A DNA stretch of 36,072 nt, taken from contig CAMIWE010000020.1 in assembly GCA_946402335.1 (NCBI GenBank), positions 1 through 36,072 on the forward strand. The letters are read 5' to 3'. Under the pieces are notes generated by a model. It saw nothing but the letters and a program-made list of their open reading frames with translations. It searched no databases and was not told the DNA's origin. This DNA is from an uncultured Lachnoclostridium sp. (GTDB lineage: Bacteria > Bacillota > Clostridia > Lachnospirales > Lachnospiraceae). A program made the translations under genes and the position numbers. This document shows positions 1,351-29,986 of this stretch, in pieces; the stretch's first letter is position 1; the number at the start of each line of letters is the position of its first letter.

Positions 1351-3516
1351 TTACTCGACAATCCGTTTCTTTCCGTCATAACGGATGGTAAGACATGCAG
1401 GCGCCTTCTTCATAAGCTTCACGCTTCTTGTATCCGGACCGGACGCGCCGACATAAATCCGATACTCGCCGGGCACGATCACGCGCTCCGCCTTGTCGTT
1501 GTATACGCCAAATGCCTTGGGCGGCAGCGAAATCTTCACGCGCTCGGTCTGTCCGGCCTTCAGATGTACCTTGCAAAGACCTTTCAGCTGCGCATTCGGA
1601 GCTCCCTTCATCGGCGACTTTACATATACCTGAACCGTCTCTGCGCCGTCCATCGCACCGCTGTTGGTAACGGATACCGAAACCTCTGCGCCGCCTTCCG
1701 GTGTTCCCGTAATCTTTGCATTCCGGAACGTAAACTTCGTATAGCTGAGTCCAAAGCCGAACGGATACAGCGCTTCTTTCGTCATGTAGCGGTAGGTGCG
1801 TCCCTTCATCGAATAATCGGTAAATGCGGGCAGTTCCTCGTCCGTTTTATAAAACGTAACGGGAAGCTTTCCTTCGGGGCTGAACTCGCCGAACAGCATG
1901 CGGGCAATCGCTCTTCCGCCCTGCGCGCCGGGATACCATCCCTGTACAATTGCCGGAATGTGCTCATCGGCCCACGTAACCGCCAATGCACTTCCGGAAA
2001 GAAGAACCAGAATGACCGGTTTGCCGCTTTCCGCGAGCACCTTAAGAATATGCTCCTGCAGTCCCGGCAGCTTGAGGCTTCTCTTATCACCGGAAGCGAA
2101 TTCATTGCCCTGATCACCCTCTTCGCCCTCAAGGCCCGGATCCAAACCCATTACTGCAATTACAACGTCGCTCATGTCCGCAACGGCTCTTGCTTCGGCC
2201 GTACGGTCATTTTCCTGCCCGAGACCCTGTACCTTATTCCGAAACAGATGGCAGCCCTCCGAATATACGATTCTGGTGCGGCGGGAATGCTTTTCCACAT
2301 ACTCGCGAATGCCTTCCAAAACGGTCACATACTCGGAAGCGGTGCCTTCATAATTGCCCACAAGGGCTTTCCGGTTATCCGCATTCGGGCCGACAATGCC
2401 GATGGTTTTAATCTCCGAAAGGTCAAGCGGCAGAATGTTTCCGGCATTCTTCAACAAAACAATCGTCTTCTCCGAAACCTTTTGGTTCAGCTTACGGTTG
2501 GCGTTGGTGTCCACCTTGTCAAAGGTAATCCGGTTAAACGGAACCTTTTCGGGCTTATCAAACAGCCCGAGTTTCATACGCGTAGTAAACAGATTCGTCA
2601 GCGCGTTGTCAATGGTCTTCTCCTCAACCAGTCCGTCCCGCACTGCCTGCAGAAGATGCACATACATATTTCCGCAGTTCAGATCGCAGCCGTTGTTCAT
2701 CGCAAGGGCAACGGTCTCCTCTTCGTTTTTGGTTACCATATGGAATTCATGGAAATCCTTCAAAGCCCAGCAGTCCGAGGTAACGTGGCCTTCAAAACCC
2801 CATTTGTCCCGAAGAATATCCTTAAGAAGCGTTTTGCTTCCGCAGCACGGCTCCCCGTTCGTACGGTTGTAGGCACCCATGACAGCTTCCACTTTGGCTT
2901 CCTTTACGCATGCCTCAAATGCCGGCAGATACGTCTCGTAAAGATCCTGCTTCGATACCTCGGCGTTAAACTGGTGACGGAGATCCTCCGGGCCGCTGTG
3001 CACCGCAAAATGCTTCGCGCAGGCAGCGACCTTCATATACTTCGGGTCATGTCCCTGTAACCCTTCGATGAAGCGGACGCCGAGACGGCTGCTCAAATAC
3101 GGATCCTCGCCGTAGGTTTCATGACCGCGGCCCCATCTGGGATCCCGGAATATATTCACATTCGGCGACCAGAACGTAAGTCCTTTATAAATATCGCGGT
3201 CACCGTATTTTGCCTGCATATTGAATTTTGCGCGCGCCTCGGTGGAAATGGTATCCGCAACCTCTTCCATCATGTTTTCGTCAAATGCGGCCGCCAGTCC
3301 GATTGCCTGCGGGAAGACCGTCGCAACTCCCGCCCTGGCGACGCCGTGAAGCGCCTCATTCCAGTAATTGTACGCTTTTACGCCGAGCCGTTTGATTTCG
3401 GGCGCGTTAAAGAGTGTCTGAAAGACTTTCTCTTCCAGTGTCATTTCCGAAACTAATGCCGCCGCACGCTCACGGAAAGACTTCTTTTCGTCTTCGTATG
3501 CTTTTCCTTTACCCAT
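1351..3516 (-). CDS. Glycoside hydrolase family 3 beta-glycosidase (beta-glucosidase/beta-xylosidase type)
   Basis: A 721-residue GH3 enzyme that releases terminal beta-linked sugars from oligosaccharides. It has no signal peptide, so it should be cytoplasmic and act on imported substrate. The N-terminal barrel carries WNEALHGVAR (52-61), NIFRDPRWGR (121-130), KHFAVHSGPED (168-178) and the nucleophile Asp248 in VTSDCWALKD. The second domain carries GLEGEEGDQGNE, and the C-terminus is a fibronectin-III-like domain, the usual order for full-length GH3. The EALHGVAR and SDCWA motifs resemble the beta-xylosidase/beta-glucosidase branch, but substrate cannot be fixed from sequence. I chose the ATG at 3516 over an in-frame start at 3552 because AAGGAGGAG sits 5 nt upstream of it. 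It lies 180 bp downstream of a sugar-binding lipoprotein gene, behind an attenuator-like structure, so it probably digests the sugar imported by that operon. Confidence 0.92.
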   Translation of the reverse strand: MGKGKAYEDEKKSFRERAAALVSEMTLEEKVFQTLFNAPEIKRLGVKAYNYWNEALHGVARAGVATVFPQAIGLAAAFDENMMEEVADTISTEARAKFNMQAKYGDRDIYKGLTFWSPNVNIFRDPRWGRGHETYGEDPYLSSRLGVRFIEGLQGHDPKYMKVAACAKHFAVHSGPEDLRHQFNAEVSKQDLYETYLPAFEACVKEAKVEAVMGAYNRTNGEPCCGSKTLLKDILRDKWGFEGHVTSDCWALKDFHEFHMVTKNEEETVALAMNNGCDLNCGNMYVHLLQAVRDGLVEEKTIDNALTNLFTTRMKLGLFDKPEKVPFNRITFDKVDTNANRKLNQKVSEKTIVLLKNAGNILPLDLSEIKTIGIVGPNADNRKALVGNYEGTASEYVTVLEGIREYVEKHSRRTRIVYSEGCHLFRNKVQGLGQENDRTAEARAVADMSDVVIAVMGLDPGLEGEEGDQGNEFASGDKRSLKLPGLQEHILKVLAESGKPVILVLLSGSALAVTWADEHIPAIVQGWYPGAQGGRAIARMLFGEFSPEGKLPVTFYKTDEELPAFTDYSMKGRTYRYMTKEALYPFGFGLSYTKFTFRNAKITGTPEGGAEVSVSVTNSGAMDGAETVQVYVKSPMKGAPNAQLKGLCKVHLKAGQTERVKISLPPKAFGVYNDKAERVIVPGEYRIYVGASGPDTRSVKLMKKAPACLTIRYDGKKRIVE

Positions 3517-3574
3517 AACCCTCCTCCTTATAATGTGTCCCGGGCTTTTCACCCCCGGTTATTGCGCTTTGAAA

Positions 3575-3661
3575 TAAAAAAAATCCCCTCGGTTGTCTCT
3601 TATCTCAAAAGGCATTACTGCCTTCTGAGATAAGAGGGGAATTTCCGAGGAAATTCCCCTC
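3575..3661 (-). terminator. Terminator or attenuator with competing hairpins between the solute-binding protein and GH3 genes
   Basis: In transcription order, GAGGGGAATTTCC (3649-3661) pairs perfectly with GGAAATTCCCCTC (3634-3646). A second, 18-bp hairpin then forms between 3619-3636 and 3597-3614 with one G-U pair. Finally GAGGGGA (3584-3590) can pair with the same TCCCCTC segment (3634-3640), extending the second hairpin right up to a run of eight T residues (about 3576-3583). The first hairpin and the extended terminator are therefore mutually exclusive at 3634-3640. The sequence shows the pairings; partial termination that lowers GH3 output relative to the binding protein is inferred. 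Confidence 0.75.
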
Positions 3662-3696
3662 CCAAAGGGAAAAGAGTCAAAAATTATTTCAGCTGA

Positions 3697-5100
3697 TTAT
3701 TTCAACTTAGCGTTGAACTCATCAACCTGAGTCTGCCACTCGCTGGAGTAAGCTTCGATGGTCTCCTGAGGAGTCTTTCCACCGCCAAGGTCATACAGCC
3801 AGTTAGGAGCAAAACCGGAAATGTATACGTCAGGAGCTGCCATGTACATATTCCACTTGTTGATCATCCAGTTACAGGTCTCAGTTACGGATCTCTTGTC
3901 CTTGAAACGGTTCTCAAGGTTGCCCTTCCATCTCGCATCATCATCCTTGTAATCATCCGGAACATCAGTGTAGATATTGTATACGAAAGCAATATCATCA
4001 GCTACGCTGGAGATCTTGTCGCAGTTAGCCATAACGAGAATGTTCTCACGACATACAGCAACATAATCCTTAGCGGACGGTCCCTTAGGAACGTTTACAA
4101 AACCGTATTCCATATCAGGAGACTGAGAGTTAATGTTGTCACAAGCATACTGCTCTTCTACGAACATTGCTGCTCTGCCTTCATAGAAATCAGCCTTGAA
4201 GTAATCCCATGCGCCGTCGCCCTGAGGAGAATAGTAACCTTCGGTAATGATTTCATTACCAAAGTTAAGTGCCTCAAGAACCTTCTTGTCGTTAGCGTTC
4301 ATAACGAGCTTACCACCATCGATCGTGATGATGAAAGTATCGTTAGCAATCAGGAGACCCTGGAAGAATACTACGTTCTGACCGGTTACACCGTAAACAT
4401 CGGTAACACCGTCGTTGTTCGTATCTCTGGTAAGAGTCTTACAGATTTCTTTGAACTTAGCGAACGTCCAGTCGCCGGAAGCCTGAAGATCATAAGGAAG
4501 GTCTTCAGAAAGGTTAGCCTGCTTGAAGAGAGCCTTGTTGAAGAACACACCGGTTCTGGGCTCAAGACCAGCTGCGAAACCGTAGATACCGCCGCTGTAA
4601 GACATAACGTCGATTACAGCCTGGTTGAACTTCTTATCGCTCCAGTCAATGGAGGGAAGTTTGGAAACATCAAGGAAAGCACCGGTCGTAAGAAGGGAAG
4701 CTACCCAACGGTTATCGAAAGTAACGATGGAACCCATGGGGTTGTTCTCACTTACACCAACAAGGAATTCCTCAGACCACTCAGTTCTCCAAGAACCGTT
4801 AGCTGCACGCTTAAAGGTGTAGTTGTAGTCCTTCATAGCCTTGTTCTGCATCTCCCAGTAAGCTTCCTGGTATGCATTGTTAGCTGCATTCCAGTCATCT
4901 CCTGACCACCAGTCAATAAGAGTAACCTCGAGACCCTTAAGATCTCTTGCCGGTGCCGTAGGCTCAGCAGTTACCGTTGCAGTAACGGTAGGGGTCGTAG
5001 CCTCTGCAGTCGGAGTAGGCGTGTTGTCTTTACAAGCTACTGCAAGAAGCATGCTTCCTACAAGTGCTGCTGCAAGGACAAGTTTCTTTGCGTTTTTCAT
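3697..5100 (-). CDS. Sugar ABC transporter solute-binding lipoprotein
   Basis: A 467-residue extracellular solute-binding protein of the family-1 (MalE-like) type. The signal peptide MKNAKKLVLAAALVGSMLLA ends in AVAC, so Cys23 should be lipidated and the protein anchored outside the membrane. A Thr/Pro-rich linker (about 27-52) precedes the binding domain, which contains GSIVTFDNRW, YGFAAGLEPRTGVFFNK and FYEGRAAMFVEEQYA. It would deliver an oligosaccharide to a permease pair, most simply the two encoded just upstream. AAAGGAGGATCC lies at the right distance before the ATG. A 158-bp gap with a folded leader (5134-5192) separates it from the permease, and a terminator/attenuator follows it, which suggests its level is set separately from the membrane subunits. 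Substrate unknown. Confidence 0.92.
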   Translation of the reverse strand: MKNAKKLVLAAALVGSMLLAVACKDNTPTPTAEATTPTVTATVTAEPTAPARDLKGLEVTLIDWWSGDDWNAANNAYQEAYWEMQNKAMKDYNYTFKRAANGSWRTEWSEEFLVGVSENNPMGSIVTFDNRWVASLLTTGAFLDVSKLPSIDWSDKKFNQAVIDVMSYSGGIYGFAAGLEPRTGVFFNKALFKQANLSEDLPYDLQASGDWTFAKFKEICKTLTRDTNNDGVTDVYGVTGQNVVFFQGLLIANDTFIITIDGGKLVMNANDKKVLEALNFGNEIITEGYYSPQGDGAWDYFKADFYEGRAAMFVEEQYACDNINSQSPDMEYGFVNVPKGPSAKDYVAVCRENILVMANCDKISSVADDIAFVYNIYTDVPDDYKDDDARWKGNLENRFKDKRSVTETCNWMINKWNMYMAAPDVYISGFAPNWLYDLGGGKTPQETIEAYSSEWQTQVDEFNAKLK

Positions 5101-5133
5101 TTAAGGATCCTCCTTTAAAAAAAGTATTCAACT

Positions 5134-5192
5134 TCCGGAACCACCTCAAGAGTTTTCACTCTCAAGAATGAAGGGCGCCCCCGCGTTCCGGA
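5134..5192 (-). promoter_or_regulatory. Folded intergenic RNA before the solute-binding protein gene
   Basis: On the minus strand, TCCGGAAC (5185-5192) pairs perfectly with GTTCCGGA (5134-5141). Inside it, CTTGAGAGT-GAAA-ACTCTTGAG forms a 9-bp stem with two G-U pairs and a GNRA loop (about 5146-5167). A T7 run follows at about 5117-5123, too far for a standard terminator. A processing site or 5' stabiliser for the binding-protein mRNA is a reasonable guess. Confidence 0.45.
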
Positions 5193-5258
5193 GCTGTTTA
5201 TCTTAAAGCCGTCGTCACGACTTTAATTCGAAAATCGGGAAGTTTTACGCTTCGGTCG

Positions 5259-6275
5259 TCACCCTTTGATACCACTTTGGCTGATACTTTCCACGAAACT
5301 CTTCTGTGCAAGCACATAGATAATAATGAGCGGAACAAGTGACAGCAGGGTACCGGTTGAAAGAATCTGATTGGAACGAGCAACCGGAACGATGTAACCA
5401 CGTCCGATAATTCTTTCCATATCATGACCCATGTTTTCAACCAAACCATTCAGTGCATTTGCGATGGTCATCCAGTTATTACCCTTTGCAAAGAATACAC
5501 GGGAGTAAATACCGTCGGTCCACCACCATACAAACGAGAACAGGAAGCAGGAAACCATCATCGGTACGGCGCCGGGAAGAAGGATTTTCCAGAAGGTCGT
5601 CCATCTGTTACATCCGTCTACGTAAGCAGCCTCTTCCAGTTCCTTAGGCTCGTTACGGAAGTGCTGGCGCATCATGTAAATATACAGACCGCCTTTATAA
5701 CCTGCACAACCTGCACAAACGATGTAGTAAGCAATTTCTTTACCGGTCAGCTTAAGACCGGATCCCTTGATCAGGTGCAGGATACCGATACCCTTGATAC
5801 CCGGGAAGTCCCAGTCTGCAAGCAGCAGCTGCAGGGGGGTGATCAGTGTCTGTGCGGGAACAACGATCAAAAGGATAACACAAGCAAACCAGAAGTTCTT
5901 TAACGGGAACTTATATCTTGCAAATCCGTATCCTACAAGCGTACAGGACAGAACCTGCAAAAGTCCTACAACGATACCGATACGGAGGGAAGTGATGAAC
6001 GGTGTTGCGCCGTGCAAATACTTCCATGCCGTCTTAAGCGGTTCCGTTGAGAAGTGTCTGGGTATATTGATGACGGTCTTATCATAAAGATCGCTTTCCG
6101 TCATCATCGAAATTGACAACTTATGCAGCAGGGGCTGCAAAATCAGGAAACAAAGTCCGAATAACAATACTGCTCGGCAAATACGAAAGATGATATCACC
6201 GATTCTCTTTCGTAACAGATATCCACCGGACTTACGGTTTCTCTCCCAAAATGATGTCTTTTCAGTCTTAGTCAT
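5259..6275 (-). CDS. Carbohydrate ABC transporter permease (MalG-like)
   Basis: A 338-residue integral membrane protein of the binding-protein-dependent permease family. The cytoplasmic EAA loop reads EAAYVDGCNRWTTFWKILLP at about 222-241, the site where an ATPase subunit docks. It ends with the typical FVESISQSGIKG tail of MalG-type subunits. The N-terminus has a basic cytoplasmic stretch of about 28 residues before the first membrane segment. Its start codon overlaps the stop of the upstream permease by 8 bases (ATGACTAA), implying translational coupling and a heterodimer with that subunit. AAGGTGG lies 10 nt before the ATG. No ATPase gene accompanies the pair, so a shared MsmX-type ATPase encoded elsewhere is expected. 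Confidence 0.93.
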   Translation of the reverse strand: MTKTEKTSFWERNRKSGGYLLRKRIGDIIFRICRAVLLFGLCFLILQPLLHKLSISMMTESDLYDKTVINIPRHFSTEPLKTAWKYLHGATPFITSLRIGIVVGLLQVLSCTLVGYGFARYKFPLKNFWFACVILLIVVPAQTLITPLQLLLADWDFPGIKGIGILHLIKGSGLKLTGKEIAYYIVCAGCAGYKGGLYIYMMRQHFRNEPKELEEAAYVDGCNRWTTFWKILLPGAVPMMVSCFLFSFVWWWTDGIYSRVFFAKGNNWMTIANALNGLVENMGHDMERIIGRGYIVPVARSNQILSTGTLLSLVPLIIIYVLAQKSFVESISQSGIKG

Positions 6276-7173
6276 AATAGTATACCCACCTTGTTATAAT
6301 GAATGAGAGAATGCCGAGTATTCCCATTATGATTACAAAGTATACCCACGACATCGCGGCCGTCAGACCGTAGTCGAAATTGAGATACAGTGTATTGGTG
6401 ATCAAAGTCATCAGATCGCTGTTCGACTTCGTACAGAAATCCACGATCGTATAAATCAGGTTTACAAGAATCATGGAGCTGATCATCGGGAAAGTAATCT
6501 TCCAGAAACTCTCCCATGCGGTACAGCCCTCGATCTTAGCTGCTTCATACATGGACGGGGAAATCGTCTGCAAACCGGAAAGGAAGATAATAATCTGAAT
6601 ACCGGATGCAATCGCGATATCGTATACCTGATCAACCAGGTCGATAACGTACTGGAAGAACTTGTTAGCACTCTGTCCGGTTAACAGGATGTCCTCCAGC
6701 GTTTTCGTAATACTTACGGTAGAAGTGTCCTTCGCAATCAGGTCCTTCATGCTGTTCAGAAGGGAGTTGTTGGTTTCCAGACCTACCATGATACCGGAGG
6801 AAAGGATAACCGGAAGGAAGTATACCGCTCTGACAAATGTTCTGCCGGCAAATTTCTGGTTCAACAATACAGCCATGAAGAAGCTGAAAACCAGAATGCC
6901 CGGTACGAACAGTGCCATATTCTTTAACTGCGTTAACAGGTTCGGAACATAGTTTGCGTTGATGAAGAATACCTCATGGTAGTTCTTCAAGCCAACCCAG
7001 GTGTAAGTGAATCCCTGCTTACCAAGTGCATCTACTTCCGTAAATGACATATACAAGGAGCTGGCAAGCGGAATCAGGAGGAACAGGGTGAAACCGATGA
7101 TGAAAGGGAGGATAAACATATATCCTGCTATTGCATTACCTCTCGCCAGGTCTCTGCGTTTTTCTTTCGCCAT
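6268..7173 (-). CDS. Sugar ABC transporter permease (MalF-like)
   Basis: A 301-residue permease, partner of the MalG-like subunit just downstream. It has six predicted membrane segments, and the EAA loop reads EAAKIEGCTAWESFWKITFP at about 213-232. The N-terminus MAKEKRRDLARGNAIAGYMF is typical of the LacF/UgpA branch. The ribosome binding site AAAGGAGG sits inside the last codons of the upstream DUF5696-type gene (stop at 7177-7179, start at 7173), so the two are tightly coupled. That coupling ties the unknown protein to transport. Within the periplasm-facing loop there is an insert of roughly 60 residues (about 126-185) that is longer than in MalF relatives of similar size; its role is unknown. 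Confidence 0.92.
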   Translation of the reverse strand: MAKEKRRDLARGNAIAGYMFILPFIIGFTLFLLIPLASSLYMSFTEVDALGKQGFTYTWVGLKNYHEVFFINANYVPNLLTQLKNMALFVPGILVFSFFMAVLLNQKFAGRTFVRAVYFLPVILSSGIMVGLETNNSLLNSMKDLIAKDTSTVSITKTLEDILLTGQSANKFFQYVIDLVDQVYDIAIASGIQIIIFLSGLQTISPSMYEAAKIEGCTAWESFWKITFPMISSMILVNLIYTIVDFCTKSNSDLMTLITNTLYLNFDYGLTAAMSWVYFVIIMGILGILSFIITRWVYYYD

Positions 7174-7176
7174 CTT

Positions 7177-9726
7177 TTAGTTTCCTCCTTTCACAACTAC
7201 CCAATCTCTTGCCGGGATCGTGAATCCGCCGATCTGGTAATCCGCAGTTCTGTAGTTTACATAAACTACGGTACCATCCGAATACTCGGTAACGAAAACG
7301 TTGTCGTTAATCATTCTGTGATTCTCGATCGTCTCGGAGGTCAGATGTCCAAAGTCCTTCTTGAACCGGTTATAAACCTCGTTCGCCTGCTGCTTCCAGG
7401 TTCCGTAGTTCGCACCGAAGTACTCGGTATGAGCGGATTCCTGAAGCTCTTCCGTTCCTGCATCCATGAAGATGAAGTACAGGCCGGCGCCGGTTTCTGC
7501 GGAGTTCAGAAGATTGGTAATATAGTCGTTAGTAATATTTACGGAATCGCCCGTGTAACGAACATATCCGTGAAGTACGATCGGGAAGAACGGAATGGAA
7601 CGGTCCTCAACGCTCGACTTCGATGCACGAATCGGGAAATCAAGAATGATATCCGCATACGGTACTGCATAAGCATTACCGCCGTAAATAACGTTTCTGT
7701 TCGCCTGCAGGCTCTTCAGTTTCTCCGTCTGGCCCTTCATGGCGGACTGACGGGTCTGAACATTCTTGCGGTAGTAGTCCGCGCCGAGCATGTTTCCGAT
7801 GGAGGCAAATGCAATACTCTTTGTTCCGAGTTTGGATGCATCCTTTAAGAAGCTGTCAATCGTCTTAAGTGTTACGGAAGGCTTAGCGAAGTAGTACTCA
7901 GGCTCATCGTCAAGCTCGCCGTACCAGATATTACTGATCTGCTTAAATTCTGCAACTTCTCTCGAAATGAATCTTGCGGAGTCACGCTTCGTATGGTAGG
8001 AATCCAACAATGTATCCTTCTTGGCGAACATAAAGTCTGCCTTCAATGATACATTATACCCTAATCCTTTCGCGCTGTCCAATAATTGTTTGAAGTTTTT
8101 CTTCTTTCCGAGCTTTCCGATCAGGCTGATGCTGTCCGGCCACTTATGATCGATGCCCTTGTTGAACCATCCGTTCAGGACTACATTGACATTGGTCCAG
8201 CCGTTCTTATTCAGATCCTTGATGATTGCTTCCATCTCGGAGTAGGTCGTCAATGCGTAAGGCTTCTCCTTCGGGAATCCGAGTACGTGCTGCATCTTTG
8301 CAACCGCGCCGAGCAGCTCAACCGCTACCGGTAAGTCTCCGTCTACCTTTGTACCGAAATCCGGGTTCGTATCAATCAGGTACTGACGATATGCCTTGGC
8401 CATATCCACATAGTTCGAGGAATCAACACCGATATAGCGGAGCTGAATCTTTTCGTTACGAGGCAGGTCTTTTTCGTAAACCTGGAAATCGGAGTTTGCA
8501 CGGCTACCGATGTCGGCCTTCTCACTGTGAACCATCGTGAAGAGGTTGGTTACATAGTTGAACAGGTACTGTCTGCCGGCAACGTCGGCTTCGATTGCAG
8601 CGTAGCTGTCGCCTTCTTCGATTACGCAAAGAAGGGAAGCATTCTTATCGGTAAAGGAAGCGCCGTAGATCGGGAAGTTTGCACGAGGGTCATTGATAAC
8701 GACGTCTCTGCTCAAACCGTAATCCCAGCCGTATACCTTTGCCGCATAGTTCTGCGCGGTCTTGCCGTTGTTGAAGTTGATGATCGCGCCGGAACCATCC
8801 GGTACGAACAGGAAACCGTCGGTCTGCATATTGGAAGCGCAGAAGAACGGAAGTACACGAAGTTCGGTGAACTGAGCACTCTGATAATACTCAATCTTAT
8901 CGTAAGGAATCTCAACAACGAGTTCGTCATTCTCCAGTTTCAGGTACATGGAGATGTTAACGGCCGGAAGTGTTTCCTTCTTCTCTTCGGTCTGACCGTA
9001 TTCGATATCCTTTTCCCAGTCTTCATGGGTATATCCGTCTTCAATCAGAAGTCTTTCAAGCTCTTCCTTCTGATAGTTCTGAAGGTTGTCATACAGCTCG
9101 TATACCTTCTTGCCTTCATTCAGATCGGGATATTTCTCAGCAAGGCTCTTCAGTTTCTCGGGGTCGCTCTCCGCGAGTTTTGCGGGATCGTAAGCACGGT
9201 ACTTACTTCTCATCTCGCTCTTCGTTTCAGAAGAACCTGCTTCTCTGAGTTCGTTGTATCTTTCCTCGGACAATACGGTCGGAATGTAGTAGGTCTTTGC
9301 GATCAGACCGATGGTGAAATCGATACGGATCGTGGACTCATTTTCCTTCTCGTATGTATAGTTTCCTTTGTTGACGCTGTGCTCGCGGCTACTAAGGAAG
9401 TTCTTTTTACCGGCATTGTTCTTGTATTCTACCATCAGGAGTGATTTGACAGCTTCACTGCCGCCCTCTTCCGCTCCTTCGGGGCTCGAGAGCCATTCAT
9501 TACCGTACTTGTCGGTATAAACGAAATTCGTTGTGGTCGGATCAAAAACAAGTTTTACTTTGCCGGACTGGATTGTCTGCGGCTCGATATCCATATCGGA
9601 GTCGAAACGATACGCAGTGATCGGTTCCTCTTCCTCATCTTTGGTATTGCCGAATTTGACAATCAGGACAATGAACAGGCCAATAATGACTAAGAGGATT
9701 GACGCTGTTATAATGAATCTTTTCAT
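7177..9726 (-). CDS. Large membrane-anchored extracellular protein, DUF5696-like
   Basis: An 849-residue protein with one N-terminal membrane segment (about 4-24), then a large soluble part that should face outside. Residues about 40-300 look like beta-sandwich sequence with a charged helical insert around 150-220. From about 455 onward, alternating strand/helix segments (VNVVLNGWFNKG, LGYNVSLKADFMFA, LGTKSIAFASIGNML) resemble a TIM barrel, followed by a short C-terminal beta region. I recognise it as DUF5696-type from memory of the family and its operon partners, not from a search. No function is established. A glycosidase-like or glycan-binding role is inferred from the fold impression and from position between two sugar permease pairs. 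I prefer the ATG at 9726 because GGGAGG is 11 nt away, while the GTG at 9735 is only 2 nt from it. Confidence 0.8.
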   Translation of the reverse strand: MKRFIITASILLVIIGLFIVLIVKFGNTKDEEEEPITAYRFDSDMDIEPQTIQSGKVKLVFDPTTTNFVYTDKYGNEWLSSPEGAEEGGSEAVKSLLMVEYKNNAGKKNFLSSREHSVNKGNYTYEKENESTIRIDFTIGLIAKTYYIPTVLSEERYNELREAGSSETKSEMRSKYRAYDPAKLAESDPEKLKSLAEKYPDLNEGKKVYELYDNLQNYQKEELERLLIEDGYTHEDWEKDIEYGQTEEKKETLPAVNISMYLKLENDELVVEIPYDKIEYYQSAQFTELRVLPFFCASNMQTDGFLFVPDGSGAIINFNNGKTAQNYAAKVYGWDYGLSRDVVINDPRANFPIYGASFTDKNASLLCVIEEGDSYAAIEADVAGRQYLFNYVTNLFTMVHSEKADIGSRANSDFQVYEKDLPRNEKIQLRYIGVDSSNYVDMAKAYRQYLIDTNPDFGTKVDGDLPVAVELLGAVAKMQHVLGFPKEKPYALTTYSEMEAIIKDLNKNGWTNVNVVLNGWFNKGIDHKWPDSISLIGKLGKKKNFKQLLDSAKGLGYNVSLKADFMFAKKDTLLDSYHTKRDSARFISREVAEFKQISNIWYGELDDEPEYYFAKPSVTLKTIDSFLKDASKLGTKSIAFASIGNMLGADYYRKNVQTRQSAMKGQTEKLKSLQANRNVIYGGNAYAVPYADIILDFPIRASKSSVEDRSIPFFPIVLHGYVRYTGDSVNITNDYITNLLNSAETGAGLYFIFMDAGTEELQESAHTEYFGANYGTWKQQANEVYNRFKKDFGHLTSETIENHRMINDNVFVTEYSDGTVVYVNYRTADYQIGGFTIPARDWVVVKGGN

Positions 9727-9746
9727 ATTATGCACACCCTCCCGTA

Positions 9747-10424
9747 TTAGCTTGCTCTAAGCGATATTTCTTTATAAAGTGAGATGAAATAGGCAACCGC
9801 ATCACTGATCAAGCTGAAGAACAGCAAGATTACGAAAATAATGATTGCCATGCCCGCAACGGACATGATGGACGATCCGAGACCTTTCAGAAGGCCGTAA
9901 TCGTGAATCATCATCATTGCACAGAGAATCAGGAATACACACCAGATTAATGCAAATGTATTAAAGTAGGTGTAGAAAACTCCCTCTTCCATCGTAACTA
10001 CATTACTTACGAAGATCATCGGGATTCCGATGAGTACATAAGGCGTAAAGCTGTAAGCCGTCGCCATGTAAATATCCCGGAAACGTCCTTTTCCGTCCAT
10101 CAGGGTCGTCAGACACCAGTTGGCAAGTACCCAGATAAACAACGGTACCAGTACGGTGGCAAGTTCCATCAGGATATTGATCTCGCTCCAGCGCGTCCGG
10201 TTAACCATAAAGCTGGAAAACCGTTTATCCCACAACCGGGTCAGCAAAGCGAGGATAACAATCGTGTGTGCAGCCGCCATGGAACCGCGGTTCTCATGGA
10301 TCAGATCCCATGCTCCGTCGAACGGATGAAGGATCATATAAAGGCTGTACTTCAGCGACTTCAGATAGTGCTTCATTCCGTCGCCGGTGAAAAGATCGAA
10401 GAGGTCGGAGATAAAGTTCTTCAT
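9747..10424 (-). CDS. Yip1-like polytopic membrane protein
   Basis: A 225-residue membrane protein with an amphipathic N-terminus containing ILHPFDGAWDLIHENRGS (31-48) and about five membrane segments (near 48-64, 85-108, 124-143, 152-173, 187-210). The size, layout and the proline-containing N-terminal motif fit the bacterial Yip1 family, whose function is not established. Its ATG overlaps the stop codon of the upstream propeller/TPR gene (ATGA), so the two are translationally coupled and probably work as a pair. The DUF5696-like gene follows 20 bp downstream. A scaffold or gate for the two large extracellular proteins is only a guess. Confidence 0.78.
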   Translation of the reverse strand: MKNFISDLFDLFTGDGMKHYLKSLKYSLYMILHPFDGAWDLIHENRGSMAAAHTIVILALLTRLWDKRFSSFMVNRTRWSEINILMELATVLVPLFIWVLANWCLTTLMDGKGRFRDIYMATAYSFTPYVLIGIPMIFVSNVVTMEEGVFYTYFNTFALIWCVFLILCAMMMIHDYGLLKGLGSSIMSVAGMAIIIFVILLFFSLISDAVAYFISLYKEISLRAS

Positions 10425-12223
10425 GCTTCCTTAATCTCCTTTCTCAGTCTGATAACCTTCCGAATTACCTTCGGAAGAACAATAAGCACAATGATAATTA
10501 CTAAGAACAGTACGATGTGCTTTTCTACCTGTTCCTCACGGTAGTGTTTAAATGCCTTGGAGTAGTTGGTCGCATCTCTTACAACTTCGAACTTATCCAT
10601 TGCTTCCTTGTACTTCTCCTGACGGAGCAATGCACGTCCTACACCGACATAAGCCAGATCGTAGTTTCCGTTGTATTTCAATACTTCCGACCAAACGTCT
10701 GCAGAAGCATCGTAGTCGCCGACACGATACAGGTCAATGGCATCCTTGATCAGGGTGCCGAAATCGGATAACGTGAACAGCGTAATGGTTCCGGTCTTCT
10801 TATCCAGAACGATCAAAGTCTTTTCATCCAGCTTGTCAATTGCAACCGGGTTTACGAAGCATCCTGCTTTTACGCCGTAGTTACCGAAAGCATAAAGCAG
10901 ATTGCCCTGGAAGTCGTAGCAGAAGATTCTGCCGCGCGTTGCATCCAGGCAGCAGTAAATCTCATTCTCGTAAATGACAACATCGACAAATGCGGATGCA
11001 CCTTTGATATTCTCAACATCTTCCCATTCAACATCACCGATCGGGAAATGATGACCGTTTCGGATCAGGATATCCTGTCCCATTGCATTAAGCTTACGAA
11101 CGGGCTTTCCGTTTCCGGCTGCAAGTTCGGCTTCCGTAAGCGTCGAAGTCGTTACATACAGGAATCCTTCGGGATCAAGTGCAACGTTGTTATACTCGGT
11201 AGGAACGTACTGCTTCGTCCTGTCTCTCTGCTTCTTTGTCTGGATACGACGCCAGAGTCTCTGAGCAAGAGAAATCGTAACCGGGCTTGCTCCTACGTAT
11301 GTCGTGAATACGCCGCCCTTGTTGAATTCCATCAGACCTGCGTTAATGTTTCTGGTCTGTACATAATAACGGCCTACATCATCAACAACGAACTTCTCGG
11401 GGAAGAATACGAAATCTTCCTTCAAAGTTTCATCTTTCGGGTCCTTTACAACACCGATAACATTCAGATTGTAATCGCAGTGAAGAATACGGTTATTCTC
11501 GGTATCGGAAATATAAATGTCATAATCACGGTCAAGCGTTTTCTTTACGACATTTTCCTTATACTCAACCGGCTTCTCGGCAGCTTCGCCGGTCTCACCG
11601 GCCTCGCCGTCCTCACCGTCCTCACCGTCTTCGCCGTCCTCGCCGTCATCCGCTTCTTCGGAATCGGAGGTCGTTGCTGCCTTATCAGCGTCAGCATTCT
11701 CGTCCGTTCCTTCGCCTTCTTCGGGCTCGGGAGTAGGAGTCGGGATCGGAGGCTCATACATCTTTCCGAGATGATCGGAGCCGAACATCTTCTCACGTTT
11801 CTCTTCATCCATCTTAACAACATGAACGTCGTAAGGGCTGTGCAGCGTGAGCGTGATGTTATCGTCTACCAACAACATTTCCTTGTTCTTCTCGGAAACA
11901 TTCACCGTGTAGATAATCCGTACCAGTTCAAAGGTTCCGTCAACATACTGAGCCTCAACGATACGGTTGTTCTTCGTGTCACATACATAAAGCAGATCGT
12001 CGATAACGAACATGCCTTCCGCATCATTAAACGTGCCTACTTCTTCGCCGAAGCTGCGGCCGTAAAAGATGTTTGTAACGGAATACGAGTCGGGGGATGC
12101 AGTTTCATCTCCCCAGTAATTGTAAGTGTAAGTGTACCACTCATCATCATCTGCCTTAGCAGAAGGAATTCCGGTAATGACAAGGCAAAACAGGATGAGG
12201 AGTGTAAGTATTCTTTTCTTCAT
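10421..12223 (-). CDS. Secreted beta-propeller (NHL-like) protein with TPR region and C-terminal membrane anchor
   Basis: A 600-residue protein. Residues 1-24 form a signal peptide (MKKRILTLLILFCLVITGIP, then SAKA). NHL-like blades are marked by DTKNNRIVEAQ (82-92), DTENNRILHCD (240-250) and DATRGRIFCYD (428-438). A disordered insert at about 156-220 is rich in Pro, Glu, Asp and Gly and contains GED triplet repeats. Residues about 490-560 look like two TPR-type helical hairpins (LYRVGDYDASADVWSEVL; EKYKEAMDKFEVV). A membrane segment at about 569-588 ends in a basic tail, so the bulk lies outside the cell. AAGGAGGCAG precedes the ATG. The beta-propeller suggests ligand or protein binding. It is coupled to the Yip1-like gene and lies between permease pairs; no biochemical role is known to me. 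Confidence 0.8.
   Translation of the reverse strand: MKKRILTLLILFCLVITGIPSAKADDDEWYTYTYNYWGDETASPDSYSVTNIFYGRSFGEEVGTFNDAEGMFVIDDLLYVCDTKNNRIVEAQYVDGTFELVRIIYTVNVSEKNKEMLLVDDNITLTLHSPYDVHVVKMDEEKREKMFGSDHLGKMYEPPIPTPTPEPEEGEGTDENADADKAATTSDSEEADDGEDGEDGEDGEDGEAGETGEAAEKPVEYKENVVKKTLDRDYDIYISDTENNRILHCDYNLNVIGVVKDPKDETLKEDFVFFPEKFVVDDVGRYYVQTRNINAGLMEFNKGGVFTTYVGASPVTISLAQRLWRRIQTKKQRDRTKQYVPTEYNNVALDPEGFLYVTTSTLTEAELAAGNGKPVRKLNAMGQDILIRNGHHFPIGDVEWEDVENIKGASAFVDVVIYENEIYCCLDATRGRIFCYDFQGNLLYAFGNYGVKAGCFVNPVAIDKLDEKTLIVLDKKTGTITLFTLSDFGTLIKDAIDLYRVGDYDASADVWSEVLKYNGNYDLAYVGVGRALLRQEKYKEAMDKFEVVRDATNYSKAFKHYREEQVEKHIVLFLVIIIVLIVLPKVIRKVIRLRKEIKEA
11586..11648 (-). repeat. 9-bp tandem repeat encoding Gly-Glu-Asp triplets
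   Basis: Seven head-to-tail units of the form TCRCCGKYC (plus-strand reading, for example TCGCCGTCC and TCACCGTCC) lie inside the propeller/TPR gene. Because the unit is three codons, gain or loss of copies keeps the frame and only changes the length of the acidic linker. Confidence 0.8.
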
Positions 12224-12237
12224 TCTTAACTGCCTCC

Positions 12238-13104
12238 TTACTCTTTAATACCGGAGCTTGCCATTGTCTCTACGATGTTACTCTGTGCGAGTATGAAGCA
12301 GACAACAGGCAAAATCATCATGAACAGGGTTGAAGCCGAAGATACGCCGGTACGGGCAACACCGCCTGCCGCCAGTGTACGGAGTGCAAACGGAAGGGTC
12401 TTCAATGCTTCGGAATAAATGTACGTCGTTCCTACGTTGTTCCACAATCCCTGAATGGAGAAAATCATCAGGGTCAGGATAGCCGGCTTAACAAGAGGCA
12501 TAACAATCGTAAAGAAGATTCTTGTTTCTCTCGCGCCATCGATCTTGGCCGCTTCCACGAGTACGTCGGGAATACTGGATTCCATGAACTGCTTCATAAG
12601 GAAGAGTCCCATCGGGGAGGCAAATGCCGGGATGATCAATGCGAGGTAGGTATCTACCCAGCCGAGCTTAGCCATGATCAGGTAGCCCGGGATCTGAAGT
12701 ACATAACCGGTGAACATGAGGGCTACCGTAACCATCTTGAAGAAGGTCAGCGAACCCGGGAAGCGGTACTTTGCAAGTACATAAGCTGCCATGGAAGCAA
12801 TCAGGATGTGTCCTGCGGTTCCGACAACCGTGATCAGCAAAGAGTTGAACGCGTAACGGGTAAATGTGATAACGCCCTGCTTGTTCATCAAAAGGAACAT
12901 GTCGCTGATGTTCTTGGTCGTAGGGTTACGAACGAAGAGCTTCGGCGGGAATACGAACAACTCATCGAGCGGTTTAAACGCGGAGTTGATTACGTATACC
13001 AACGGGAATGCGAAAAAGCATCCGAATAATACGAGGACAATTCCTACACCGATATCACCCGCGAGGGATCGGTTAGGCTGTCTTCCAGCTTTAATCTTTT
13101 TCAT
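12238..13104 (-). CDS. Carbohydrate ABC transporter permease (MalG-like)
   Basis: A 288-residue permease with six predicted membrane segments. The EAA loop reads EAAKIDGARETRIFFTIVMP at about 184-203, and the protein ends VETMASSGIKE as MalG-type subunits do. It pairs with the permease gene 15 bp upstream. Two in-frame ATGs (13110 and 13104) are possible; AGGAGG lies 8 nt from the second and only 2 nt from the first, so I chose 13104. The propeller/TPR gene follows 14 bp downstream. It carries no ATPase domain and presumably uses the same outside ATPase as the other permease pair. Confidence 0.92.
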   Translation of the reverse strand: MKKIKAGRQPNRSLAGDIGVGIVLVLFGCFFAFPLVYVINSAFKPLDELFVFPPKLFVRNPTTKNISDMFLLMNKQGVITFTRYAFNSLLITVVGTAGHILIASMAAYVLAKYRFPGSLTFFKMVTVALMFTGYVLQIPGYLIMAKLGWVDTYLALIIPAFASPMGLFLMKQFMESSIPDVLVEAAKIDGARETRIFFTIVMPLVKPAILTLMIFSIQGLWNNVGTTYIYSEALKTLPFALRTLAAGGVARTGVSSASTLFMMILPVVCFILAQSNIVETMASSGIKE

Positions 13105-13119
13105 CGTCATTCCCTCCTA

Positions 13120-14052
13120 TCAGGTTCCAAGTCTGCTGAGTGCCTTCTGAATGAACTTGTTACACAGGTACATTGCAAGGAAGAGCACTGTTGCGATGGC
13201 GGAAGCATATCCCATTTCGAAACGCTGCTGGCCATAGTCGATCAGGTGGGTAACAACGGTACGGGCTGCATAGTCGGTACTCGGGAATCCGCAGAGAGCC
13301 ATTGTTACGTCCGCGGTATTGAATGCGGTCGTGATGGACATTACGGCACCGAACATCAACATGGACTTCATGTTCGGCAGGGTGATGTACCAAAGCTCCT
13401 GCCAACGGTTTTTAACACCGTCAACGTATCCTGCTTCATACTGGTCATCCGGAATGGTATTAAGACCTGCAATGAAGGAAAGGAATCCGGTTCCGAGGGA
13501 TGCCCAGAGGATTACGATGATAACGATCGTCATCATGTATCTCGGGTCTGTCAGCCACATGACTGGTTTCTCCAGTAATCCAAGGTCTACTCCTATTGCG
13601 TTTGCATAACCGTAAGAGTCACCGGAGAAGATGAATGTCCAGATCAGGTAAACCTGACCGGAAATGGTCGGTGCGTAGAAGATCAGCACCGCGATTGCAC
13701 GGATACGTTTCGGCAGCTCATGGATCAGCCATGCAAAAAGGAATGCCGCGATGTATCCGACAGGACCTGTGATTGCTGCAATCAGGAAGGTATTCTTAAC
13801 TGCAGTAAGGAAAATGTCATCAACAAGGATTAGGTTGATGTAGTTCCGCATTCCGATAAAACGTGCGGGCTGCAGAACGTTGTAATAGGTAAAACCGAAC
13901 CAGATGGAAACAACTACCGGAACGATATAAAATAACGTGAAGATGATCGCATAGGGAGCAAGAAAAGCGTAGCATGTTCTGAATGTTCTGATGTCTCTCC
14001 ACATAAATTTGCGCTGAAGCTGTTTGCGTCTGCGCCAATTTGCATAACTCAT
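13120..14052 (-). CDS. Sugar ABC transporter permease (MalF-like)
   Basis: A 310-residue permease. The N-terminus is basic (MSYANWRRRKQLQRKFMWRD) before the first of six predicted membrane segments. The EAA loop is a variant, EAGYVDGVKNRWQELWYITLP, with Gly replacing the second Ala, a change found in some MalF-type subunits. GGAAGGAGG precedes the ATG. It lies 18 bp downstream of the large anchored solute-binding protein, which makes that protein its likely partner, with the MalG-like subunit downstream completing the channel. Confidence 0.92.
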   Translation of the reverse strand: MSYANWRRRKQLQRKFMWRDIRTFRTCYAFLAPYAIIFTLFYIVPVVVSIWFGFTYYNVLQPARFIGMRNYINLILVDDIFLTAVKNTFLIAAITGPVGYIAAFLFAWLIHELPKRIRAIAVLIFYAPTISGQVYLIWTFIFSGDSYGYANAIGVDLGLLEKPVMWLTDPRYMMTIVIIVILWASLGTGFLSFIAGLNTIPDDQYEAGYVDGVKNRWQELWYITLPNMKSMLMFGAVMSITTAFNTADVTMALCGFPSTDYAARTVVTHLIDYGQQRFEMGYASAIATVLFLAMYLCNKFIQKALSRLGT

Positions 14053-14070
14053 ACGTTTTCCTCCTTCCTT

Positions 14071-17061
14071 TTATTCGAGACCGAATTCCTGTCTCTTCTT
14101 CTTAATCTCTTCGTTGATATCACGTGTATAGTCAAGCAGTGTCTCACGTGCATCTTCGTTTGCGTTGATAACCTTACGAACTGCGTTAACGATATGTCTC
14201 GATGTGTAGTAACCGCCGGGAACCTCAGGTGTTCCTACGATCCACTTTCTCTGAGCGAGAAGCGTTGCACGCTGCTCGGTACTCCATGCCAGGCGGTCAA
14301 ATGCCTCAAGGTTTGCAGCTGCATATCTTGCAGACTCACCCATAACGGCTTCAAGTTCCATACCGTACTGAGCCTGAATGTCTGCGCTTGCCCACCACTG
14401 CAGGAAGGTCCAAGCCTCTTTGTGCATATCGGAGTTCTGAAGCATCATCGAGCAAACGCCCCAGCACTGGATGCTTCGGTCGATATCGTACTCGCCGTCA
14501 CCGTCGCGGTCAACCTTGTTGCCGTTCTCATCCGTTACATACGTTCCGGGGATGAGAGCCATATCCCACAAACCACGAATCTCGGGAGCGGATACGCAAA
14601 GGGTATTGAAGGTATTGAAGTCTACGAATCCGAGCGGCATCTCACCGGTACGGAAACGGTCAACGAATGCGTAGTCACGAGGCGTGTTGTAATGTGTAAA
14701 GAACTTGGTATAAGCTTCGAATGCCTCGATGGCGAGTTCCGAATCCAGATTTACTCTGGAAAGGTCATCCGTATAAAGGGAAGCGCCACGCTGATACAAC
14801 TGTGCGTAGAAACCGTTCATATCCGGGTTTGCTACGTTGTTGATCTTACGTTCGGTGGAAGGAATACCGACATCCATGTGCGCTTTCTGTAATTCGGAAA
14901 GAATTACGATTACGTCGTCCCACGTCTGCGGGATATCAAGACCGAGTTCTTCGAAGATATCGGTACGATAGAACATTACGTTGAAGTACTGGGTCTCGGG
15001 AATCGCGTAAACGCCTCTACCATATTTATAAGGAACATACGAAGATTCCATGAAGTCGGCGATGACTTCGTCGAAGCCTCTTACATACATTCCGGTATCT
15101 TCCTGTGTCCAGCCCTTGAACTGCGTCAGGTCGACAGCCGCACCTCGTAATGCGTAGTTAACCGGTTCACCGCCGGCTACGCCGAGCGCTACGTCAGGAC
15201 CGGTTCCTGCAACCGTTGCGGGAAGCAGAACCTCTGCCGTGATCAGGTCAAGGTTAACACCGATGTTGTAGTTGGAAACGAAGCTGGTATCAATCAGCTG
15301 CTTTAAGATCGTACTCTGGTCACGACCGCCGAAGATCCATACGGTGATGATCTTGTCAAGCTCGTCTTCGTATACGTTTCCGATTGCGTTATAGTCAACC
15401 GTGAAGGAAGCAACAAATGCTTTGATTTCATGGAATGCTTTCTGGAACCAGTTCGCGGTATCCTTCTTAACTTTGTAATCCGCACCGGATACAACAACGT
15501 AGTCGATATCCAGCTGGGAATCACTCAGCGTCAGGATTGCGGAACCGAGGGAACTTACATTACCTTTGAAGGAAACAAGGTTCTTCGGAATCTTGTCGGC
15601 ATCCTTCGAGAATTTTTCAAGCTGGTCGGCAAGCGTCAGGCAGGCAGTAACCTGAGAGCCTTTCTCACCGGTATATGCTACAAGGTCATCAATCAGTTTG
15701 TACAAAACCTTGGACTCATCACCCATGGCCTTGATAACGCCGGGGTACTTTTCGTCAAGGTTGTAGTCACGGTATTCATCCGGGTTGGTACCGGTAAGAA
15801 CGAGGATCTGACGATACATTGCGTTCATACGGAACACGCTGTCGTTCATCCGGTTCAGCAGGTCGCCCATCTGGCCGAGCGTAACCTCAAGACGGATGCT
15901 GTTCTTGCCCTGATGCAGATAGAACTTGTAAGGGTTGCCCTTCTCGTCGGCAAGCTTCTGCATCTTCCAGTCACTGCTGTATGCAAACTGGATGGCGGAT
16001 ACTTCGTCAAACGGAATCTCGCCGTTGACATATAAAGTACGGCACGACACATAACCACGGTTGTAGTTCTGTCTTGCCTTAAAGGTGATCTCGTAAAAAC
16101 CATCCTTGGGAACATCAATTTCCCATTCAATCCACTGACCGGCTCTCTTCCAGTTCTCGCCGCCGATCATGTTGAGGACCTGTCTCTTTACGCTGTAAGG
16201 ATAGGTGACTGCGGAGGATCTGTCATAGGTAGGGAACAAAGACTGCTCGGAACGGAGCTGAGCCTTTTCTCCTTCGATACGGACACTGTTCTTATTAGCA
16301 GCCTTGCTCGAACCGTGCTCGCTTTCCATCTTGCCGAGGTAACTCTGGTAGTTATCTCTTTGCTTAACTGCCGTCAGCGCGAGGTCGCTCAGGATAAGAG
16401 TCTCCTGGGTGGCTTCGAAGCGAATCTTGTTTTCGCCCTGCTTGAAATAGAAGCAGTAAGGCTCGGTGATGTAACCGAGGTCATCCTTAATAAAGGTAGT
16501 CTCCCAACGGGGAGCTTCCTTCTGCTTAGGACGGAGCTGGTTGCCCTGGTTGTCTTCCGTGATCTCGCCGGCATCCGTATACATTCTCGGGAATGCAATC
16601 TGGGACGCGCCGTTGTACTGCGCCTCGCCGTTGATCAGAAGCACTCTCTGAATCTCAACGCCACGGGATGTGTTCTTGTTCGTGTCGGGATAGTATGTAA
16701 GCTTGATGTTATACATTCCGGCTTCGGGAACGTTAACGGTAAACTCTACATAACCATTCTCGTAGGACTTTAATACGCCCTTCTTGTCATCAATGTCGGT
16801 GAACTCATACTTCTCGCCGGTCAGCTTCTTAAGGTCGACAACGATATCCCCGGTCGGATACGCAGCATCCTTATAGCGCATCAGGAAAGCAGCATACGAG
16901 TCCTTACGACCCTCAGCCTCGACTGTGGAAAAGTCAAAGCCCTTGTACTTGTCGGAATAGTCTGTCTTCTTCGTCACGCCGTTCCAGATCAGAAGAAATA
17001 CAATGACAGCTATGATGATAGCCGACCAGTATACACTCTTTTTCTTTAAAAGTTTTAACAT
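14071..17061 (-). CDS. Giant membrane-anchored solute-binding protein with two carbohydrate-binding-like modules
   Basis: A 996-residue protein, about twice the usual size of a solute-binding protein. The N-terminus has a membrane segment (11-29) after a lysine-rich start and no lipobox, so it is held by an uncleaved signal anchor. Two similar beta-sandwich modules follow, at about 98-232 and 258-395, recognisable by matching VPEAGMYNIKLTYYP and VPKDGFYEITFKAR strands, each followed by an LLINGE/LYVNGE turn and a Q-G-x-N-x-I-R strand. They resemble CBM6/35-like modules. A helical linker (400-550) leads to a family-1 solute-binding domain (about 570-996; TVWIFGGRDQ, GTGPDVALGV, SIQCWGVCSMML). 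I chose the ATG at 17061 because CGGAGG precedes it; a longer in-frame reading to 17145 has no such site. It is the first gene of the operon. Confidence 0.88.
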   Translation of the reverse strand: MLKLLKKKSVYWSAIIIAVIVFLLIWNGVTKKTDYSDKYKGFDFSTVEAEGRKDSYAAFLMRYKDAAYPTGDIVVDLKKLTGEKYEFTDIDDKKGVLKSYENGYVEFTVNVPEAGMYNIKLTYYPDTNKNTSRGVEIQRVLLINGEAQYNGASQIAFPRMYTDAGEITEDNQGNQLRPKQKEAPRWETTFIKDDLGYITEPYCFYFKQGENKIRFEATQETLILSDLALTAVKQRDNYQSYLGKMESEHGSSKAANKNSVRIEGEKAQLRSEQSLFPTYDRSSAVTYPYSVKRQVLNMIGGENWKRAGQWIEWEIDVPKDGFYEITFKARQNYNRGYVSCRTLYVNGEIPFDEVSAIQFAYSSDWKMQKLADEKGNPYKFYLHQGKNSIRLEVTLGQMGDLLNRMNDSVFRMNAMYRQILVLTGTNPDEYRDYNLDEKYPGVIKAMGDESKVLYKLIDDLVAYTGEKGSQVTACLTLADQLEKFSKDADKIPKNLVSFKGNVSSLGSAILTLSDSQLDIDYVVVSGADYKVKKDTANWFQKAFHEIKAFVASFTVDYNAIGNVYEDELDKIITVWIFGGRDQSTILKQLIDTSFVSNYNIGVNLDLITAEVLLPATVAGTGPDVALGVAGGEPVNYALRGAAVDLTQFKGWTQEDTGMYVRGFDEVIADFMESSYVPYKYGRGVYAIPETQYFNVMFYRTDIFEELGLDIPQTWDDVIVILSELQKAHMDVGIPSTERKINNVANPDMNGFYAQLYQRGASLYTDDLSRVNLDSELAIEAFEAYTKFFTHYNTPRDYAFVDRFRTGEMPLGFVDFNTFNTLCVSAPEIRGLWDMALIPGTYVTDENGNKVDRDGDGEYDIDRSIQCWGVCSMMLQNSDMHKEAWTFLQWWASADIQAQYGMELEAVMGESARYAAANLEAFDRLAWSTEQRATLLAQRKWIVGTPEVPGGYYTSRHIVNAVRKVINANEDARETLLDYTRDINEEIKKKRQEFGLE

Positions 17062-19929: not shown

Positions 19930-19939
19930 ATTCCCCTCC

Positions 19940-28983: not shown

Positions 28984-29021
28984 TGCCTGCTCCTTTCATC
29001 CGGGATTTGTATGATTCTTTT

Positions 29022-29050
29022 ATCTTAACACGATTTTTTTCGCTTGACAA
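29022..29050 (-). promoter_or_regulatory. Promoter of the histidine kinase gene
   Basis: On the minus strand, TTGTCA (29045-29050) is followed by a 17-bp spacer and TAAGAT (29022-29027). It begins directly after the terminator of the permease operon and is about 39 bp from the GTG start. Confidence 0.7.
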
Positions 29051-29052
29051 CA

Positions 29053-29083
29053 TAAAACGGGACAGCCCTGGGGCCGTCCCGTC
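29053..29083 (-). terminator. Intrinsic terminator of the second sugar ABC operon
   Basis: On the minus strand, ACGGGACGGCC pairs with GGCTGTCCCGT (one G-U) and runs into TTTTATG. It separates the permease genes from the kinase gene. Confidence 0.85.
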
Positions 29084-29985: not shown

Positions 29986-29986
29986 A

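Follow-up and report, generated by a model that had tools for sequence, protein, structure and literature searches.

The gpPULs of Lachnospiraceae are the closest described systems to the locus reported here. In the available part of PMC5320581 they are defined as a polysaccharide-degrading enzyme, a transport system and a transcriptional regulator in one locus, and they are substrate-specific. On the transport side stand the CUT1 importers (MalFG/UgpAE type), with two EAA-loop permeases, binding proteins and an ATPase encoded elsewhere. In the Bacteroidetes, SusCD utilisomes join a glycan-specific importer to surface partner proteins (PMC7618045, available part). Precedents for single proteins are YknW, a Yip1-family membrane protein that modulates the assembly of the ABC transporter it works with (PMC4887032, available part), and the glycosidases NagBb (GH129) and ZgGH129/DagB (GH129-like).

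How does the present locus compare? The window, by which we mean the whole stretch of 36,072 nucleotides that was analysed, holds genes for two sugar importers, A and B, arranged around a trio of an NHL beta-propeller/TPR protein, a Yip1-domain protein and a DUF5696 protein. It is a minimal case of a gpPUL, with a GH3 enzyme, permeases and an AraC regulator in one locus and the GH3 gene behind a probable terminator. It differs in having two permease pairs in one operon and in the trio, which goes unmentioned in the available text of PMC5320581. The conserved accessory trio also sets the cassette apart from CUT1 importers. Compared with SusCD utilisomes, it has cytoplasmic-membrane ABC permeases in place of SusC barrels (neither SusC nor SusD families appear in the Pfam tables of 25 window genes), and its complex is putative. 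YknWXYZ exports a peptide toxin, and the available part of PMC4887032 mentions neither a propeller/TPR partner nor a glycosidase fold. Unlike NagBb and ZgGH129/DagB, the cassette DUF5696 protein has a membrane anchor, and its acids are lost in the window and in most copies.

A literature search with subscription papers and preprints outside its scope returned no paper for the term 'DUF5696' and, among the matches listed, no description of the trio; the available parts of PMC6344614, PMC8262883 and PMC10318527 do not mention it, and nowhere in the literature searched did we find sugar importers of the ABC class described together with a conserved accessory trio. Clostridia that degrade fibre play a major part in gut and rumen, and conserved accessory machinery comparable to SusCD is not described for them in the available parts of these sources. 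The same block of plant-fibre sugar importers and three little-known membrane-attached proteins is found in many gut and rumen bacteria. We read it as a membrane-tethered import station for xylan-derived oligosaccharides, in which importer B and the trio would form the core and a pseudo-glycosidase would hold the glycan, and we give this reading a probability of roughly 0.47. The genes are linked, two of them are fused in a number of loci, the folds are predicted, the acid pair is lost and hemicellulase genes lie nearby.

Structure of the operon

All nine open frames of the original prediction are present on the minus strand between 3697 and 17061. Their order of binding protein, permease pair, trio, permease pair and binding protein is matched by Pfam domains and coordinates, with SBPb placed by similarity to solved sugar-binding proteins. 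The features are as follows.

468..1280, minus: S26-type signal peptidase adjoining the GH3 gene (PF10502)
1351..3552, minus: GH3 glycosidase, no hydrophobic N-terminus (Pfam GH3)
3553..3696, minus: branched hairpin with nested arms, then eight U, between the SBPb and GH3 genes (z-score -6.44; 0 of 200 shuffles as stable)
3697..5100, minus: SBPb, lipoprotein solute-binding protein (lipobox-like LAVAC; similar to 6rjy and 4r9f)
5101..5258, minus: gap before SBPb, with branched hairpin and U run (fold z-score -2.58; 2 of 200 shuffles as stable)
5259..6275, minus: PermB2, importer B permease (BPD_transp_1; EAA-type loop by eye)
6268..7173, minus: PermB1, importer B permease (BPD_transp_1; EAA-type loop by eye)
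7177..9735, minus: DUF5696 protein, N-terminal hydrophobic anchor, predicted GH129 fold (Pfam DUF5696, 597 bits)
9747..10424, minus: Yip1-domain membrane protein (PF04893, 41.8 bits, cut-off 28.6)
10421..12223, minus: NHL beta-propeller and TPR protein, with signal peptide and a single membrane helix at the C-terminus
12238..13110, minus: PermA2, importer A permease (BPD_transp_1; EAA-type loop by eye)
13120..14052, minus: PermA1, importer A permease (BPD_transp_1; EAA-type loop by eye)
14071..17061, minus: SBPa, solute-binding protein with N-terminal hydrophobic anchor (RBS and ATG at 17061); SBP_bac_1/8 (Pfam) covers residues 613-927, the C-terminal part of the longer frame
17429..18307, plus: AraC-type regulator, cupin-type sensor and HTH, divergent (Pfam HTH_18, AraC_binding)

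From SBPa to SBPb the gaps are 18, 9, 14, -4 (ATGA), 11, 3, -8 and 158 bases, in agreement with the predicted range from an 8-base overlap to 158 bp. The proposed coupling of the trio to the transporters is likewise seen in the sequence, in the ATGA overlap and in the RBS of PermB1, which lies inside the last codons of the DUF5696 gene. The annotated start of that gene is a GTG, and an ATG at 9726 is better placed. The hydrophobic segments fit the claim that the trio is membrane-attached. The NHL domain is over the Pfam cut-off at 26.6 bits, and TPR_16 in the same protein reaches 29.9 bits, slightly below its cut-off of 32.7. Residues about 160-220 of the NHL protein form an acidic, glycine-rich low-complexity insert that is poorly modelled.

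Paired permeases with EAA-type loops and a solute-binding protein (Pfam; loops by eye) place the importers in the CUT1 class. We take the EAA-type motif of the four permeases to be the ATPase-coupling loop. Elsewhere in the genome lies a gene for a MalK/MsmX-type ATPase that has Walker A and signature motifs. An ATPase as a regular part of the cassette can be ruled out, as any homologue was seen in just 16 of 152 loci within the fetched flanks; one of these (L171) is 56% identical to the MsmX-type gene and the others 22-36%. Although no Pfam family is found in SBPb at E 0.001, its sequence resembles the arabino-oligosaccharide-binding protein 6rjy (E 9e-9). SBPa has its hydrophobic stretch at residues 7-33 and about 550 residues besides the SBP domain. 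CBM_35 stays below cut-off there (21.4 of 28 bits), and there is a weak profile match to PDB 2w47 (E 0.023), which we take to be a CBM35; SBPa possibly carries CBM35-like modules.

The hairpin at 3553-3696 is the probable terminator of the nine-gene operon and may separate the GH3 gene from it. It is absent among the sites of a simple terminator pattern scan; promoter and terminator pattern scans of the window gave no more matches than shuffles did, and Rfam had no match on the window at gathering scores. The S26 signal peptidase beyond the GH3 gene was found by similarity in 4 of 152 loci, the window counted, and is labelled in the near relatives L061, L062 and L064. Elsewhere in the window, a further sugar importer (binding protein and permease pair) lies beside a sensor histidine kinase at 27184-32241, and at 18370-21040 a 519-aa protein with no Pfam match adjoins an NAGPA-type phosphodiester glycosidase.

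How might these parts work together? Importer B (PermB1, PermB2 and SBPb) and the trio are probably the core, with the NHL/TPR and Yip1 proteins as a membrane-held scaffold. The DUF5696 protein, a glycosidase fold minus its acid pair, would keep the glycan close to the importer and would not cut it. Importer A, whose binding protein possibly has CBM-like modules, would be a second, common module; both permease pairs would share one ATPase encoded elsewhere. GH3 is an exo-type enzyme, and the window's GH3, having no signal peptide, would cut the imported oligosaccharides. All the proteins might form one complex. Within this scheme we hold most firmly that the trio would be a physical partner of importer B, and least firmly what DUF5696 would hold and whether the parts would form one complex.

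Recurrence of the gene order

Could the nine genes be a chance run of transport genes? This is ruled out, because the same order recurs in many genomes. Of 150 genomes scanned within the family, 31 matched the Yip1 profile and 32 the NHL/TPR profile (one a weak partial). The 31 with Yip1 are also those with long cassette-type DUF5696 (counted by eye; in G016 the cassette is split over two contigs). DUF5696 matches of any kind were found in 57 of the 150, over the cut-off in 43, the rest being short-type or partial. In 391 Clostridia genomes the Yip1 profile matched 101 places, spread over 78 genomes or about a fifth of the sample, and the cassette may serve as a marker to find and type fibre-uptake loci. 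DUF5696 lies within 3 kb downstream on the same strand at 97 of the 101 places, the exceptions being G186 (at a distance of 3.6 kb), two contig pieces (G311 and G251) and G399:C2. Counted by genome, 77 have both Yip1 and DUF5696, one has long DUF5696 alone and one Yip1 alone; this linkage is taken over 100 long-type DUF5696 rows among the matches listed, with short-type and fragment rows left out, including those of G206 and G422 (fragments with no Yip1 match) and another fragment adjoining the Yip1 gene in G251.

A set of 152 cassette loci was collected via DUF5696: 40 from the family (most, not all, of its strong matches), 80 from named genomes (the best 80 of at least 489 confirmed places), 31 from the class, to which the window is added. 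One of them, L088, belongs to the cultured Eubacterium xylanophilum ATCC 35991. The set contains 149 distinct DUF5696 sequences and its loci are not all independent, since at least two contigs are present twice (L026/L140 and L043/L077, each a single contig that occurs in two collections). Yip1 is present in 148 of the loci, NHL and PermB1 in 147 each, PermB2 and PermA2 in 142 each, PermA1 in 140, SBPa in 131 and an SBPb of the window's type in 101; some absences are explained by contig ends or by other types of binding protein. The full order SBPa-PermA1-PermA2-NHL-Yip1-DUF5696-PermB1-PermB2-SBPb is kept in 85. The original prediction was to be given up if the three families usually occurred apart from each other and from sugar permeases; the opposite was found, with Yip1 and DUF5696 together at 97/101 places and NHL and PermB1 each in 147/152 loci. 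Pairwise-identity matrices of the nine proteins correlate at 0.85-0.96 over 75 complete sets, a figure that still includes species relatedness. SBPb (0.32) and DUF5696 (0.36) are the least conserved of the nine, as expected of substrate-facing parts. Alignments A3, A4, A5 and A6 comprise 59, 52, 41 and 29 sequences, drawn from the frames listed and with the window included. In one family, L151-L154, the DUF5696 protein is about 950-990 aa long and its profile matches fall in two pieces.

The NHL/TPR and Yip1 proteins are one frame in 31 loci, with the Yip1 part C-terminal in 29 of them by the rule of the script, and 45 of the 101 Yip1 matches in Clostridia lie in frames of at least 480 aa. This fusion suggests that the two proteins work together. 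No PDB sequence matched the Yip1 profile at E 1.

Do both importers belong to the core? Twenty places from other classes of the phylum, chosen from Yip1 matches in five genomes, bear on this. At nine of them NHL-Yip1, DUF5696, PermB1, PermB2 and an SBPb-type gene stand with neither pair A nor a complete SBPa nearby; G596 contributes seven of these and G574 the other two, so that all come from two genomes, which slightly lowers our confidence in the main reading. That the trio stays with importer B in these loci suggests that importer A is an addition to the core. The predicted two permease pairs are therefore present in the window and in the usual order, but pair A may be dispensable.

Tight linkage, fusion and the persistence of the trio with pair B where pair A is absent would also fit a trio that acts as an assembly or stability factor of the importer, like YknW, a Yip1 precedent, for YknXYZ (available part of PMC4887032), with DUF5696 structural and binding no glycan. 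We consider this rather unlikely: the predicted model of DUF5696 retains a whole glycosidase fold, the protein is among the most divergent parts, and its tree tracks glycan class (see below). The conserved cassette makes DUF5696, bacterial Yip1 and the NHL/TPR orphans testable parts of sugar import.

Fold and catalytic residues of the DUF5696 protein

The predicted model of the window's DUF5696 protein matches the GH129 fold, followed at lower scores by GH101, GH36, GH31 and GH13, and a protein of unknown fold is thereby ruled out. PF11308 aligned to the cassette profile by hhalign with probability 99.3 and E 7.5e-21, which indicates homology, and the A1 profile of DUF5696 matched 5opq and 5wzn in hmmsearch. 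The Pfam scan of the window protein at E 0.001 listed DUF5696 alone and no GH129 family. The catalytic Asp of GH129 presumably follows barrel strand 4 and the Glu strand 5. Nine short DUF5696 proteins have Asp at the column of window residue 645 and Glu at that of 684 in 9/9, and in the alignment of GH129 with them these columns line up with Asp in 'FID' and Glu in 'GSE', the Glu being one residue off in one of three hhalign comparisons. By sequence alignment the window protein has Ser645 and Tyr684 in place of the acid pair; in the model, Ser645 stands just after strand 641-643 and Tyr684 ends strand 682-684. Position 684 meets Glu517 of DagB by eye, in a sub-threshold alignment tail. According to the available part of PMC5698469, which proposes a separate family for DagB, the candidate catalytic residues of DagB are Asp486, Glu517, Glu531 and Asp202, and of the two catalytic residues of NagBb Asp435 alone is conserved in DagB, as Asp486. 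The Asp position is thus surer than that of the Glu, because the second NagBb residue is not conserved there.

Both acids are kept in 6 of 152 cassette copies (gaps scored as no acid) versus 9/9 of the short proteins; one residue of slack, with gaps scored alike, raises the former to 16 of 152. Among 20 further cassette copies read, two were unreadable at these positions and 5 of the other 18 have both acids. Most cassette copies, that of the window included, are therefore probably pseudo-glycosidases, and a minority may not be. The original prediction had offered processing of a polymer as one role of the trio; for the window's DUF5696 this is unlikely, because the catalytic acids are lost. 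The cassette DUF5696 likely adds a new example of an enzyme fold recruited for binding or docking.

Alternatively, DUF5696 would be catalytically active, as a glycosidase whose catalytic residues are shifted or unorthodox, and would trim side chains of oligosaccharides at the membrane. The predicted GH129 fold, the retention of both acids in some copies and the conservation of two other acids would speak for it, Glu747 being kept in 145/152 copies and Asp711 in 113/120 separate-type and 23/31 fused-type copies. We hold it unlikely, given Asp and Glu in 9/9 short proteins against Ser and Tyr in the window and a pair seldom kept in cassettes; moreover, the activities named in the available part of PMC5698469 are on alpha-GalNAc and 3,6-anhydrogalactose, which are not parts of xylan.

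The short DUF5696 proteins (L143-L150 and L155; 561-630 aa) were excluded from the cassette counts and have an AraC-type regulator nearby. From the kept acid pair they are predicted to be undescribed active glycosidases, which is probable. In L155 the short acid-keeping gene, with neither NHL nor Yip1, lies beside an ordinary importer of binding protein and one permease pair.

Glycan class of the cassettes

The payload genes vary between loci. GH130, GH26 and CBM65 are read as mannan, GH51, GH43 and LamG as arabinan or arabinoxylan, and GH10, GH67, UxuA and GH3 as xylan; GH31, GH36 and GH2 also occur. Labelled by enzyme similarity, the 152 loci comprise 41 xylan, 17 mannan, 11 arabinan, 10 with GH3 only, 1 mixed and 72 with no typed enzyme, 17 gene types having been looked for in short flanks. 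On the DUF5696 tree (FastTree, with some long branches), glycan labels change 3 times over 69 labelled rows versus 21 or more in 300 shuffles, organism relatedness being included in this difference. Four of nine examined multi-cassette genomes (G127, G045, G068 and G039) carry both mannan and arabinan cassettes.

What does the cassette of the window import? Its set on the tree has 78 rows, of which 35 are labelled xylan, one arabinan plus xylan and none mannan, at a branch support of 25; the next well supported set (support 100) has 92 rows with 37 xylan and 6 mannan labels. GH3 alone is carried by the rows nearest the window. Next in identity come L065, L066 and L067 (40, 38 and 38%), all with GH10, and L066 also with GH67. 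The GH3 of the window has its best PDB matches in 7zb3 and 8c7f, named beta-xylosidase and xylosidase, then in beta-glucosidases. GH10 matches lie on three contigs of the window's genome; GH67 had no match in this genome, which is 86% complete. The tree set, the GH10 and GH67 of relatives, the beta-xylosidase-like GH3 and the GH10 in the genome make xylan the likely, though not proven, substrate.

Hosts, capture and copy number

Among the 80 named loci (the best 80 of at least 489 places), 15 are in records titled Treponema or Spirochaetia (L069, L070, L073, L080-L083, L086, L095, L100, L109, L112, L115, L118 and L130). On the DUF5696 tree these copies fall into two groups that adjoin Clostridia, and the cassette has probably been transferred into a two-membrane host, the spirochaetes. 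If the binning is right, the proteins of these records would be periplasmic, which favours oligosaccharides over polymer.

This bears on the form in which the idea was first put, that a surface complex catches a polymer and feeds both importers. The membrane anchors, the possible CBM-like modules on SBPa and the GH10, GH26 and CBM proteins of some loci, whose secretion is putative, would agree with it. It is nevertheless improbable, as nine-gene cassettes in Treponema records would face the periplasm, pair A is absent from some loci, and the Pfam-scanned genes of the window include no endo-acting enzyme. A sensor role for the trio, which would report glycan or importer status to the cell, is very improbable: propeller proteins with a membrane helix can serve as sensors and a PknD propeller domain is among the matches, but Pfam finds neither a kinase nor any further known output domain in the three proteins, and the window-type AraC regulator is no more than a frequent neighbour. 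Of the 81 loci whose upstream sequence is long enough to show it, 32 have it at most 2.5 kb upstream of SBPa, 31 of these in divergent orientation.

The import station for xylan-derived oligosaccharides may work in outline like a utilisome. In its widest and more doubtful form, the proposal would be of a widespread, undescribed counterpart of the utilisome in Gram-positives, in which binding proteins specific for a glycan would be docked onto an ABC importer by two partners, a catalytically dead protein of GH129 fold and a membrane scaffold of propeller/TPR and Yip1 parts. This modular complex would have been copied and adapted to xylan, mannan and arabinan, in some cases inside one genome, and would have reached the spirochaetes by transfer. 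In the phylum search Yip1 was found in 35 of 368 genomes; five of them, G574, G596, G615, G668 and G697, have at least eight matches each, mostly in NHL-fused frames, which may be a multiplication of the cassette analogous to that of SusCD. Directly downstream of the cassette in L085 (16374-22347) lie HlyD-like and FtsX-like exporter genes, and genes of similar size stand downstream of the cassette in L096, L105, L120 and L129.
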